Origin: Halorubrum salsamenti
GTDB lineage: Archaea; Halobacteriota; Halobacteria; Halobacteriales; Haloferacaceae
Direction of reading: 5' to 3'
Assembly (NCBI RefSeq): GCF_007671685.1
Contig: NZ_VCNL01000002.1
Span: 682,001 to 746,000 of the forward strand
DNA: 64,000 bases
Of the stretch, positions 57,897-63,787 are shown piece by piece. The position numbers and the translations under genes were made by a program. Within the stretch, counting starts at the first letter, position 1, and each line of letters starts with the position of its first letter. The notes below the pieces were generated by a model that saw only the letters and a list, made by a program, of their open reading frames with translations, ran no database searches and had not been told where the DNA came from.

Positions 57897-59372
57897 TCAC
57901 CGCTTCGGTTCCCGATCCGGTTCCCGATCGACGACCTCCGGCGTGCCGCTCAGGATACCGCGGAGCTGCGACATCGGCTCGCCGACGGTGATGCCGTGTT
58001 CCGTGATCCGAAACTCGCGGATCGTCCGCTCGAAGTCGCTCGTCCGCTTCTTGAGGACGCCGATCGCCTTCCGGAGCTCGCCCTCGACCTCCAGGTGCCG
58101 GAGGAAGACGATGTTGTCCGCGAGGTAGCTGATGTTCTCCATCGTCGCCTGGAACTCGCCCGTGACGTTCCGCGTCTCGTCGACGAAGAGCCCCGTCACG
58201 CCCTCGTTCTTGAGGTAGCGGCCGAGCGCGTGCATCTGCTGGAGCATCATTCCCTCGTCGCCGCGAAGCGTCAGCCGGTACCCGGAGATCCCGTCGACCA
58301 TGACGATGTCGGCGTCCCGCTCTTCCACCTCCTCGCGGACCATCCGCGCGAACTCCTGTGGCGACCGCTCTAACGCCTCCACCTCGTTCACTTGCAGGGT
58401 CCCTCTCTCCAGCATCTCGTCCACCGGGATGTTGACTGCGCGCGACCGGGTGAGGAACGTCTCCTTGTTCTCCTCGAACAGGTAGATGACGGAGCGTTCC
58501 CCTCGGCCCGCGGCCTCCTTCATGAACTGCGTGCTCAGGGTCGTCTTCCCCACCCCGGTCGGCCCGCTCACGACGGTGACGGTCCCGCGTTCGATCCCCC
58601 CGTGGAGCAGCTCGTCGAACTCCGGGATCCCCGAGGAGATCTGTTCGAACTCGGCGTCGTCGTCGCGCTGTCCGGGCTGGAGCGCGGGGTACACCTCTAT
58701 GCCCGAGTCGGTGACCCGGTAGGCGTGATCGCCGCTCTGCGTCGCCGAGCCGCGGAACTTCGGCACGCCGATCGTCTTGCCGTACTCCGCCGCGTCGAGC
58801 TGGATCGTCCCGTCCGTGATGAACTCGAGGTCGTCCGTCGGCAGCGACTCGGTGTTCTGGACGGTGAAAAGCACCGTCGTCTCCAGGCCTTTCAGGAAGC
58901 GCATGAATCCGACCACCTGCTTCCGGAACTGGTAGTCGTCGGACAACAGGAAGCGGAGCTGGGTCAGGGGATCGACGACGACGCGGTCCGGATCGGCCGC
59001 GGTCACGCCCTCGACGATCTGCTCGGTCAGCGATTCCCGCTCGACCTCGGAGGGCTCGAACACCTCGTACGACTCGTCTTCGACGAACACGTCCGCGCTC
59101 GGACTCAGGTCGAGGAACTCGATCGCGTCCGTGTCGAAGCCGAGCGCGGCCGCGTTCGCCTTCAGGTCGCGGGCGTCCTCTTCGAGGTTGATGAACAGCG
59201 CCGTCTCCCCCTCGTCGACGCCCTGCTGGAGGAAATGGAAGCTCAGGATCGTCTTCCCGCTACCGGCCTGCCCGCGGACCATGTAGCTACGCTTCGGGAC
59301 GAGTCCCCCCGACAGTATCTCGTCGAGTCCCGCCACGCCGGTCGACATTCGCCCGGGCAGTGGTGTTGACAT
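57897..59372 (-). CDS. KaiC-like double RecA-fold ATPase
   Basis: 491 residues. Two RecA-like domains, each with Walker A (GQAGSGKT at 34-41; GPTGVGKT) and Walker B (DRVVVDPLTQ; DIVMVDGIS), plus the clamp-like STGVAGLDEILSGGLVPKRSYMVRG start typical of KaiC. The true clock KaiC phosphorylation pair (Ser-Thr in the C-terminal domain) is not evident, so this is a KaiC relative as found in many haloarchaea, not proof of a clock. It is divergent from a LOV histidine kinase 74 bases away. ATG 59372 is the usual start (MSTPLPGRMSTGVAGLDE). Confidence 0.92.
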   Translation of the reverse strand: MSTPLPGRMSTGVAGLDEILSGGLVPKRSYMVRGQAGSGKTILSFHFLQQGVDEGETALFINLEEDARDLKANAAALGFDTDAIEFLDLSPSADVFVEDESYEVFEPSEVERESLTEQIVEGVTAADPDRVVVDPLTQLRFLLSDDYQFRKQVVGFMRFLKGLETTVLFTVQNTESLPTDDLEFITDGTIQLDAAEYGKTIGVPKFRGSATQSGDHAYRVTDSGIEVYPALQPGQRDDDAEFEQISSGIPEFDELLHGGIERGTVTVVSGPTGVGKTTLSTQFMKEAAGRGERSVIYLFEENKETFLTRSRAVNIPVDEMLERGTLQVNEVEALERSPQEFARMVREEVEERDADIVMVDGISGYRLTLRGDEGMMLQQMHALGRYLKNEGVTGLFVDETRNVTGEFQATMENISYLADNIVFLRHLEVEGELRKAIGVLKKRTSDFERTIREFRITEHGITVGEPMSQLRGILSGTPEVVDREPDREPKR

Positions 59373-59446
59373 CTTGTCGGTCCGTTCGGCGACCGATCAC
59401 ATAAATGGACAACTCTTAGTGGCTGTGCGGTCTTCCTCTACGAAAT

Positions 59447-60927
59447 ATGGGTACGGGTCCCGGCGAGATCGCCGACGAGTCCGCACCCGACGAGACCGCC
59501 GGGTCCGAGACGGCCGACCGGGTCTTGCTGTTCATGCGAGCGGGACGCGACCGCGAGCTGGTGGCGGAGACGCTGAGCGAGCGGTACCGGATCGAGACGG
59601 CGACCGACCCGGACGAGCTCGACTCGGGGTTCGACTGCTGCGTGCTCGACGCCCACGCGTTCGGCCGGCTCACTGAGGTGCTCGACCGGCGGCGAGAGCG
59701 CGCAGACCCGGTGTTTCTCCCCTTCGTGCTGCTCGTGCAGGATTCCGGGTCGGAGACCACACGGGACCCGTGGGAACACGTCGACGACGTCGTCGAACTC
59801 CCGGTGCGGGGGCGACGCTGCGGTCCCGGATCGGCAACCTGATCGAGCGGCGACGCACCTCCCTCCGGCTCGCGGCTCGCGAGCGGCAGCTAGAGACGGC
59901 CGTCGAGGAGCTCCGGCAGAAGGAACGGGCGATGGACGAGGCCCCGGTGGGGATCTCACTCTCGGAGCCGGGGACGGAGAACAACCCGCTGACCTACGTC
60001 AACGAGGAGTTTCAGCGGCTCACCGGGTACGGTCCAGAGATGCTCGGGAAGGACTGTCGGTTCCTGCAAGGGGAGGACACGGATCCCGAAACGGTGGCGA
60101 CGATCCGCGAAGCGATCGACGACGAACGGCCGGTATCCACCGACATCCTGAACTACCGCGCGAACGGCCAGAAGTTCTGGAATCGACTCACCGTCGCGCC
60201 GATCCGCGACGAGGACGGGACCGTGATACGCTACGTCGGGTTCCAGATGGACATCACGGAGCGGAAGATCCGCGAGCGGCGGCTGGAGGTTATGAGTCGG
60301 GTACTCAACCACAACCTCCGGAACAAGATGAACCTCATCGAGGGGTACACGGACCTCTTGCGGCGCGACCTCGACGAGGAACAACGCCGAAAATCGCTCG
60401 ACGTGATCGCGGAGACGACCGATGACCTAATGGGGATCGCGGAGGCGGTGCGGAAGATCAACCACACGCTCTCGGAGACCGAACCGGACGAGGCCACCGT
60501 CGAGCTGCGCGACCGCCTGTCCGAGCTGCTGAGCCGGATGAGCGATCGGTACCCCTCCGCGACGTTCGACCTCTCGCTTCCCGACGACGACCCGCTCAGG
60601 ATGAGCGTTCTCGGCCTCCAGACGGCGATCGAGGAGGCCGTCGAGAACGCGGTCAAGCACAACCACGCCCCGAACCCGACGGTCTGGATACGGGTCGAGA
60701 ACGGGGACGAGGAGTGGATCGAGATCGAGATCGAGGACGACGGGCCGGGGATCCCGGAACACGAGACCCACGTGCTCGAACGGGGCGAGACGTCGCTGAA
60801 GCACGCGGACCGGCTCGGGATCTGGCTGATGTACTGGGTCGTGAGTAAGGCGGGCGGCGAGTTCTCAGTGGAGTCGTCCGGGACGGGCGGGACGCTCCTC
60901 CGGATGGCCGTCCCGGCGCGCCCTTGA
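59447..60927 (+). pseudogene. LOV-domain histidine kinase interrupted by a frameshift
   Basis: Two frames make one gene. 59447-59842 gives a receiver-like domain ending DDVVELPVRG; it runs out of frame at the five-G run 59808-59812. With one more G the frame joins ATLRSRIGNLIERRRTSLRLAARERQLETAVEEL, the usual linker, and goes on to 60927. The next part is a LOV-type PAS domain: LGKDCRFLQGEDTDP (photoactive-Cys motif), NYRANGQKFWN and GFQMDIT. The kinase part has VMSRVLNHNLRNKMNLIEGY (phospho-His), EEAVENAVKHNH, EDDGPGIPE and GIWLMYWVVSKAGG. Sequencing error, phase variation or decay are all possible; the second part may still be made. Confidence 0.8.
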
Positions 60928-62043: not shown

Positions 62044-62916
62044 TCATTGCCCTTCAGGCGGTGATACGGTCAGTACGGGGACGTTCGCGACGCGGACGAT
62101 TTTCTCGGTGACGCTTCCGAGGAAGTACCGTTCCAGGCCGGTTCGGCCCTGCGTCCCCATCACGATACAGTCGACATCACGTTCTTCCGCGTAGTCCAAG
62201 ATGGCTCGGGCAGGTGTTCCACTCAGAACCGATGCCTCCACGGACCGCAGATCCGCGTCTTCGGCTCGATCGATGACGTCATCGACGGCCCGTTGGCCCG
62301 CCTCCTCTAACGCGGTTAGCACCTCAGTACTACCAAAGTTTCCCGAAAGGGGGGTGAGATCGACGGCGTGGACGACATGCATCGCTGCACCGGTCGCCTC
62401 CGCGAACGTTATCCCGTGATCCGCGGCAACGTTCGCCGGGTCGCTCCCGTCCGTCGGCACGAGGACCGTCTCGAAGTCGGGGTCGAGCGGGACGTCCTCG
62501 TGGACAGTGAGGACCGGTACCGGCGAGGTGCGGAGCGTCCGCTCGGTTACGCTACCGAGGACGAGGCGGTTCAACCCCGTTCGCCCGTGCGTCCCCATCA
62601 CGATGAGATCGACGTCGTGGTCTCTCGCGTAGTCGATGATCGTCTGGTGGACCGGGTCAGCGGTTTCTATGACCTGAGTCGCCGTTGAAACTCCGACGTC
62701 CGCCGCCCGATCCCTGAGCGTCGCTAGCGTCTTCTCCCGACGGTGGGTAATTTCCTCGGCAACCTCTGATTCGACGTCGGTCGGGGACTCATTGAGTTCG
62801 ACGACGTTAATCGCGTGGAGCGAGGCGTCGAAGCGTTGTGCAAGGCCGAGCGCTGTTTCAGCTGCTGTTCCCGCAGCGGCGCTCCCGTCTGTCGGAACCA
62901 GGATCTTGTCGTACAT
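62044..62916 (-). CDS. Tandem universal stress protein
   Basis: 290 residues from ATG 62916: two UspA domains, each with VPTDGS near the start and the ATP-binding GTHGRTGLNRLVLGSVTER / GTQGRTGLERYFLGSVTEK motif (G-x2-G-x9-G-S). MYDKILVPTDGSAAAG begins domain one and FETVLVPTDGSDPAN domain two. Cytoplasmic, ATP-binding, stress or energy-linked. A related single-domain gene and a broken Usp remnant lie just upstream on the same strand. Confidence 0.92.
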   Translation of the reverse strand: MYDKILVPTDGSAAAGTAAETALGLAQRFDASLHAINVVELNESPTDVESEVAEEITHRREKTLATLRDRAADVGVSTATQVIETADPVHQTIIDYARDHDVDLIVMGTHGRTGLNRLVLGSVTERTLRTSPVPVLTVHEDVPLDPDFETVLVPTDGSDPANVAADHGITFAEATGAAMHVVHAVDLTPLSGNFGSTEVLTALEEAGQRAVDDVIDRAEDADLRSVEASVLSGTPARAILDYAEERDVDCIVMGTQGRTGLERYFLGSVTEKIVRVANVPVLTVSPPEGQ

Positions 62917-62939
62917 GCTTCTCTCTTTGAGTTGAGACG

Positions 62940-63082
62940 TTATCAAGGTAGACCACCGTCTTCACCGGCTCGCGTTCTTCCCGTACTCCCAAGACCGGCA
63001 TCGGCGCACGTCGAACGACCTCTCGACCGTAGTTCCGATACCGCGTGTCGCGTCGCGCCAAACGGGCGGACCAACTCGACAC
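62940..63082 (-). pseudogene. Remnant of a Usp-like C-terminus
   Basis: Reading the minus strand gives RNYGREVVRRAPMPVLGVREERE, matching the end of a universal stress domain (G..ERVVR.APVPVLVVR). Only this tail is preserved, with no ATP-binding loop before it, and it runs into the start of the tandem Usp gene. Probably the relic of a third usp copy. Confidence 0.5.
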
Positions 63083-63113: not shown

Positions 63114-63542
63114 TCAGCGAACTAACACCACGGGCACCGACGCGCGTTTCGAGACCGTCTCGGCCACGTTCCCGACGAGAAATTGACGCGTCGCGCGGCT
63201 CCAATCCGCGCCGTGAGCACCGAGCACAACCGTGTCGTAGTTCTCAGCGCGATCGATGATATTCCGGGCGGGGTGACCGATGTCTACGATCGTGTCGATC
63301 TCCCGGTCACGCTCGGTCGCTATCTCGCGGGCACGTTCGAAGACAGGTTCGGCACGTTCGGCGGCGGCCTCCTCGATATCGTCCGCGAGGGCGAGCGCCG
63401 CCGCTTCTCCCATCATCGGCGATGGAACGCCGACAACGTGTAACACGGAAACGTCGGCGCCCGGAAAATTGTCGAATGCGTATTCGAGCGCCTGCCCGGC
63501 GTGCTCGGAGTCGTCCATCGGAACGAGAATTCTCGAGGCCAT
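63114..63542 (-). CDS. Universal stress protein, single domain
   Basis: 142 residues from ATG 63542. UspA fold: ASRILVPMDDSEHAGQALEYAFDNFPGADVSVLHVVGV, DIGHPARNIIDRAENYDTVVLGAHGADWSRATRQFLVGNVAETVSKRASVPVVLVR. The ATP loop GAHGADW...FLVGNVAE is slightly altered from the G-x2-G-x9-G-S form (GN instead of GS). Follows, on the same strand, the relic and the tandem Usp. Confidence 0.9.
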   Translation of the reverse strand: MASRILVPMDDSEHAGQALEYAFDNFPGADVSVLHVVGVPSPMMGEAAALALADDIEEAAAERAEPVFERAREIATERDREIDTIVDIGHPARNIIDRAENYDTVVLGAHGADWSRATRQFLVGNVAETVSKRASVPVVLVR

Positions 63543-63787
63543 ATCCCAAAGGGATCGTCCACCCACCTAAGTCTCTTCCTCAGACAACGCCCGGCTGATC
63601 CGCCTCCGTGGTCCGTCGTTCTGGCTGGACGGCGCGGTTGGTCCGTATACGAACGAGATCCTCCGCACAATCCTCTCTCCGACGGCAACGAAACGAGCGA
63701 CAGGGGGCCGCCGCGGCGCCGAAAAGGGGGGATACTTAGCGCGGGCGGACGACCGTACCCGTGGTCAGCGGTGATCGATCCTTCCGG

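Follow-up and report, generated by a model that had tools for sequence, protein, structure and literature searches.

Organization of the locus

The window analysed here is a stretch of 64,000 nucleotides from Halorubrum salsamenti, and near its end lie two coding regions that point away from each other. On the minus strand, positions 57897 to 59372 encode a two-domain KaiC-type ATPase of 491 amino acids. On the plus strand, starting from an ATG at 59447, are the parts of a sensor histidine kinase with a LOV domain. The divergent orientation, the 74-base gap that separates 59372 from the ATG at 59447, and the two-domain nature of the KaiC relative had all been read from the DNA in an original prediction, and each was borne out. 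The intergenic region (59373-59446) contains a TATA-like AT-rich stretch and a TTAGTG block, both conserved across Halorubrum in an alignment of 29 species, and on this basis it possibly holds overlapping divergent promoters.

The same prediction treated the kinase as one gene extending from 59447 to 60927, and this has to be corrected, as both a frameshift near 59809 and an N-terminal pseudo-receiver domain had been missed. The ATG at 59447 opens a frame of 131 amino acids which matches the pseudo-receiver profile (E 4.8e-33) and is ended by the frameshift, with a stop at 59842. The LOV-histidine kinase is read in a second frame, which stays open between 59677 and 60927 and is readable as protein from about 59815, with possible starts at a GTG (59770) and an ATG (59932). 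In an alignment with four close Halorubrum species, all four have one extra base near 59809, which places a one-base deletion between 59804 and 59818, adjoining a run of five Gs. Pseudo-receiver, LOV domain and kinase form a single frame in relatives with an intact copy, and the intact Halorubrum protein has about 490-550 amino acids. As the intact copies are joined in one frame, the deletion is particular to the H. salsamenti genome, and a programmed frameshift is unsupported. An unbroken kinase gene in this genome is ruled out by the split frames and the congener alignment, although the LOV-kinase part is itself open.

Downstream of the kinase are two frames (62044-62946 and 63114-63566) that by eye resemble universal stress proteins; their adjacency to the pair is not conserved within the stretches compared.

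The LOV domain and the histidine kinase

The three motifs on which the prediction of a LOV domain was based, LGKDCRFLQG, NYRANGQKFWN and GFQMDIT, are all present in the plus-strand frame ending at 60927. The domain itself (PAS_9, PF13426, E 1.1e-20) occupies 59953-60261, and the codon of the photoactive cysteine, within GKDCRFLQ, is at 60055-60057 (pattern match G000:C12:742046, equivalent to window position 60046). Among solved structures, the best matches of the LOV-kinase are LOV photoreceptors and LOV kinases, led by the YtvA-FixL chimera YF1 (4gcz, E 2e-34) and followed by Chloroflexus LOV domains. The motif G-x-D-C-R-F-L-Q, with its photoactive Cys, Arg and Gln, is invariant in 14 orthologues, as are the flavin-contacting Asn, Asn and Gln of NYR, FWN and GFQ, and the photoactive Cys is kept in all of the Halorubrum orthologues. 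When the H. lipolyticum kinase is modelled (pLDDT 84.6), its LOV domain superposes on crystal LOV domains to within 0.7-0.8 Angstrom. From these residues, the domain would be expected to bind flavin.

The LOV motif occurs at three sites in the H. salsamenti genome as opposed to none for a reversed control pattern, and is therefore not a product of chance. It is rare when set against the 32 HATPase_c domains of the same genome, and across the genus there are one to four sites per genome. The further motifs in this genome lie at G000:C16:328261-328284 and G000:C1:647008-647031, and GVNCRFLQ, the type found at the former, recurs in most Halorubrum genomes. The photoactive position is not a cysteine everywhere. 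In two Halobacteriales MAGs (L075, 5441-6922; L076, 883-2373) the motif reads GENHRFLQ, with His replacing the Cys in a pseudo-receiver-LOV-kinase that is otherwise intact and lies beside KaiC; the position is Ser in L158 and Pro in L188.

The kinase region contains the expected boxes (HNLRN, ENAVKHN, DDGPGIP and GIW), conserved in the 14 orthologues. The phospho-acceptor His, within LNHNLRN, is encoded at 60310-60312 and is invariant in this set; the HisKA match is weak, and the HATPase_c catalytic domain (PF02518, E 6.5e-16) is at 60610-60918. As in YF1, EL346 and the Brucella LOV-HK, which give the best structural matches, the LOV domain directly precedes HisKA-HATPase; unlike here, to our knowledge none of those proteins has a pseudo-receiver in front or a KaiC neighbour. 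The haloarchaeal LOV kinases reported together with ALovD-1 (PMC12202551) share the canonical LOV domain and C-terminal kinase, but their N-terminal domain is a receiver whereas that of the Halorubrum kinase is a pseudo-receiver. The paper describing them makes no mention of KaiC, whereas the Halorubrum kinase has a KaiC gene linked to it. The LOV domain expressed in that study was photoactive, so that a haloarchaeal LOV domain with the canonical motif is known to be a working blue-light photoreceptor (PMC12202551).

The KaiC-type ATPase

Two PF06745 domains (E 3.8e-80) were recognized in the KaiC relative, and its matches to KaiC structures extend along the whole protein. Like Synechococcus elongatus KaiC it has two RecA-like domains, with Walker A, Walker B and the pair of catalytic Glu residues intact in both. 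The equivalents of Thr426 and Ser431 of the S. elongatus protein are kept, the latter in 170 of 171 homologues; the position of Thr432, however, is a Tyr, as it is in all LOV-paired and all bacterial homologues. In the alignment the adjacent Ser431-Thr432 phosphorylation pair is thus absent and replaced by Ser415-Tyr416 (codons at 58125-58130, minus strand). With Tyr at this position the clock's ordered Ser-Thr cycle is not possible in its known form, although the Ser may still be phosphorylated.

The NCBIfam models for clock KaiC score far below their cut-offs on this protein. KaiA and KaiB profiles (PF07689 and PF07688), both of which detected their targets in S. elongatus as a control, have no match in the H. 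salsamenti genome, which is 99.96% complete. In S. elongatus the partners of KaiC are SasA and CikA; here the partner is a pseudo-receiver-LOV kinase and there is no KaiA or KaiB match. Membership of a KaiABC clock was rejected on these grounds together with the Tyr at 432.

The N-terminal pseudo-receiver

The domain in front of LOV has no match in Pfam or NCBIfam. An AlphaFold model of the H. lipolyticum domain, made with 62 sequences, has a receiver fold (pLDDT 92), and the solved structure nearest to it is that of the second PleD receiver (Z 16.0, with an rmsd of 2.7 across 129 residues). None of the 62 sequences has the acidic pair that follows strand 1 or the Lys that follows strand 5, but 54 of them retain the Asp that ends strand 3; these positions were assigned from the predicted strands. 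An ordinary response-regulator receiver was rejected, given the missing active-site residues and the lack of a PF00072 match. The domain is a pseudo-receiver as this term has been defined in the literature (PMC12632262). It shares with the pseudo-receivers of CikA and KaiA, which act in KaiC signalling, a receiver fold without the full phosphorylation site (PMC12632262). Nonetheless, those two belong to a different sequence family, and the domain described here has no Pfam match. The pseudo-receiver of CikA sits at the C-terminal end of the protein and binds KaiB.

Conservation of the pair

As a check, the original prediction had proposed a search for the adjacent pair in other haloarchaea, and in this it was strongly supported: the divergent pair recurs in some 30 species of Halorubrum, in Halobellus captivus and, amid different surrounding genes, in further haloarchaea. 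Halorubrum genomes share the flanking genes as well, and since the whole neighbourhood is retained, adjacency in that genus alone is weak evidence. In a locus from another family (L041), however, the divergent pair is kept and the flanking genes have changed.

A scan with KaiC alone returned 80 public loci, from Halorubrum, Halobellus captivus and several Halobacteriales, followed by cyanobacteria, Chloroflexota, Myxococcota and others at 51-57% identity. A pseudo-receiver protein adjoins KaiC in 78 of them, the exceptions being L100 and L122. In the bacterial loci this protein is downstream of KaiC, co-directional and without the LOV motif, and a co-directional version with LOV is present in Salinigranum and in a Haloarculaceae genome. 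The two genes are often separated by a small receiver gene in cyanobacteria; L086, L094, L085, L108 and other cyanobacterial loci have KaiC, a receiver protein of 120 amino acids and a pseudo-receiver-kinase in a row, and the KaiC of these loci, at 51-57% identity, is nearer to the archaeal KaiC than clock KaiC is.

Among 195 Halobacteriales genomes, the pseudo-receiver is present in 101, KaiC in 99 and both in 95 (Fisher p about 1e-42, a value that ignores kinship, although the pattern extends over dozens of genera). No more than 1.5 kb separates 103 of the 132 pseudo-receiver copies from KaiC; 89 of these are co-directional and downstream, and 12 are divergent as in the window. Taken with the 78 loci, this co-occurrence indicates that KaiC and its pseudo-receiver partner form an old module, and chance neighbourhood was rejected on the strength of L041, the 78 loci and the 103 copies. 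The association is not universal. Some two-domain KaiCs have no pseudo-receiver partner nearby, and G019 has none in its genome; conversely, there are pseudo-receiver proteins with no KaiC in their vicinity. In family f17, the genomes G046, G097, G105, G123, G167, G181, G186 and G208 each have several additional two-domain KaiCs; no pseudo-receiver was detected close to these extra copies, and in most of the genomes the pseudo-receiver protein is on another contig.

Variation in sensor and output domains

Sensor and output domains vary among the partners of KaiC and the pseudo-receiver stays. When the presence of LOV is mapped on the KaiC tree it changes 11 times, at least nine of them by well-supported branches, compared with 23 under shuffling; the label is the strict motif, which misses some divergent LOV domains and may therefore lead to an overcount of the changes. 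A single well-supported clade unites the divergent LOV pairs of Halorubrum and its closest relatives, together with one MAG in which His replaces the Cys. With the label repeatedly gained and lost, light is not an input common to all versions of the module. From this distribution, LOV is an exchangeable sensor that is stable in Halorubrum, where the photoactive Cys is kept.

Six loci have a partner without a kinase match (L155, L163, L167, L139, L141 and L143). The three of these that were scanned (L155, L141 and L163) have a partner with the order pseudo-receiver-GAF-BAT-HTH_10, as do Haloferax-type genomes, and KaiC may in such cases be wired straight to a DNA-binding regulator. Three of the six are in one genus; in three genomes of that genus the published forward primer for Haloferax volcanii cirC matches KaiC at the same site, with 0-2 mismatches. 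The CirC protein, like the one described here a two-domain KaiC homologue (PMC3941300), is on the evidence of that one primer probably orthologous to our KaiC relative. Searches of the genomes that match the forward primer gave neither the cirC reverse primer nor the fixL and orc2 neighbours that have been reported; where scanned, the neighbour of KaiC in these genomes is the co-directional pseudo-receiver-GAF-BAT-HTH_10 protein, in contrast to the divergent LOV kinase of the window. H. volcanii has four kaiC homologues including cirC, with light-dark-dependent expression that is arrhythmic in cir mutants (PMC3941300). This expression fits a link to light in the KaiC family, even though the cirC partner in that species is apparently not a LOV kinase.

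Discussion

The domain content of the pair, its intact catalytic and photochemical residues, the predicted receiver fold, and the co-inheritance and adjacency of the two genes in archaea and bacteria form the basis for what is suggested here. We consider it probable that the Halorubrum pair is one version of an ancient module, comprising a two-domain KaiC-type ATPase and a pseudo-receiver partner, in which blue-light input is coupled through the pseudo-receiver to a KaiC switch. Blue light would generate a flavin-cysteine adduct in the LOV domain, and the resulting change would pass through the adjoining helices and alter kinase or phosphatase activity. The pseudo-receiver is the constant element of the partner proteins and is proposed as the contact with KaiC; by analogy with CikA and KaiA, it might dock onto the KaiC hexamer, and each protein would then set the state of the other, the ATPase state in KaiC and the light state in the kinase. 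KaiC would act as an ATP-driven switch or hub, and the output could be phosphotransfer to a response regulator whose gene lies elsewhere. The docking, the direction of signalling, the output and the functional link as such are what we infer from this arrangement. A more far-reaching version, that haloarchaea possess a light-set KaiC timer or switch free of KaiA and KaiB, with the pseudo-receiver-LOV-kinase as both input and output and with related pseudo-receiver proteins reading KaiC in cyanobacteria and Chloroflexi, is speculative and seems to us unlikely.

The general theme of KaiC-based signalling is known. KaiC-like ATPases have been presented as archaeal signalling hubs connected to sensory domains (Makarova, Galperin and Koonin 2017, cited in PMC5847659), and the present pair shares this general theme. 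What appears to be new is a pseudo-receiver without a family model that is tied to one KaiC family in both Archaea and Bacteria, LOV being an exchangeable part. The one paper found that names both KaiC and a LOV domain in Archaea describes no such pair. The original prediction of a new haloarchaeal arrangement was right in that the pairing is real and conserved, but too narrow, since KaiC and the pseudo-receiver also occur together in bacteria, are mostly co-directional, and have LOV as one of several sensors. By its tracking of one KaiC family from cyanobacteria to haloarchaea, the pseudo-receiver becomes a clear candidate for the docking part. The clock output SasA-RpaA has been reported missing in Archaea (PMC5520375), and a genus-wide, linked blue-light kinase in culturable haloarchaea offers a concrete candidate for both input and output of KaiC homologues outside KaiABC.

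Other explanations of the pair have to be considered. The LOV domain might be a redox or oxygen sensor, with the module tuning metabolism through KaiC and light irrelevant to it, and this would suit the PAS or GAF sensors carried by partners of the same KaiC family that lack LOV, the His at the Cys position in two MAGs and the Ser or Pro in two other loci, and the H. volcanii neighbour described as fixL (PMC3941300). It is nevertheless improbable for Halorubrum, where all orthologues retain the Cys and where the canonical motif is of the kind that works as a blue-light photoreceptor in haloarchaea (PMC12202551). The two genes could also be mere neighbours under a shared divergent promoter, with the LOV kinase and KaiC in separate pathways; adjacency within Halorubrum needs no function, given that the flanks are conserved as well. 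We regard this as quite unlikely, however, because 78 of the 80 loci and 103 of the 132 copies show the linkage, which spans dozens of genera and two orientations and extends to bacteria, and because L041 retains the pair with other flanks. Least likely of all, and in our opinion very improbable, is that the pair belongs to a KaiC-based circadian clock entrained by light. KaiC homology, the LOV input and light-dark-dependent cir expression in H. volcanii (PMC3941300) would be in keeping with such a clock, but the absence of KaiA and KaiB family matches from the genome, the Tyr at the Thr432 position in all close homologues and the low scores of the clock models all speak against it.

For the strain itself, the deletion near 59809 may be either a real loss, with the coupling gone, or a base lost in sequencing. 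That the kinase is truly broken, and that light input has been lost or reduced to an internally started LOV-kinase (ATG 59932) unable to couple to KaiC, is a serious possibility, though we lean slightly away from it. The deletion separates the pseudo-receiver from LOV and is missing in all four congeners compared; against this, the remaining frame is free of stops and has 87% identity to its nearest relative, the adjoining run of five Gs is a common place for sequencing errors, and the genome is a draft of 21 contigs. A broken gene in this strain is in any case compatible with the coupled light-sensing module favoured here for the family. Apparent frame breaks were also seen elsewhere in Halorubrum, in KaiC of L047 (G011) and in the pseudo-receiver-LOV-kinase of L142 (G178), and such repeated breaks of the pair in high-GC drafts may reflect sequencing error or real loss.
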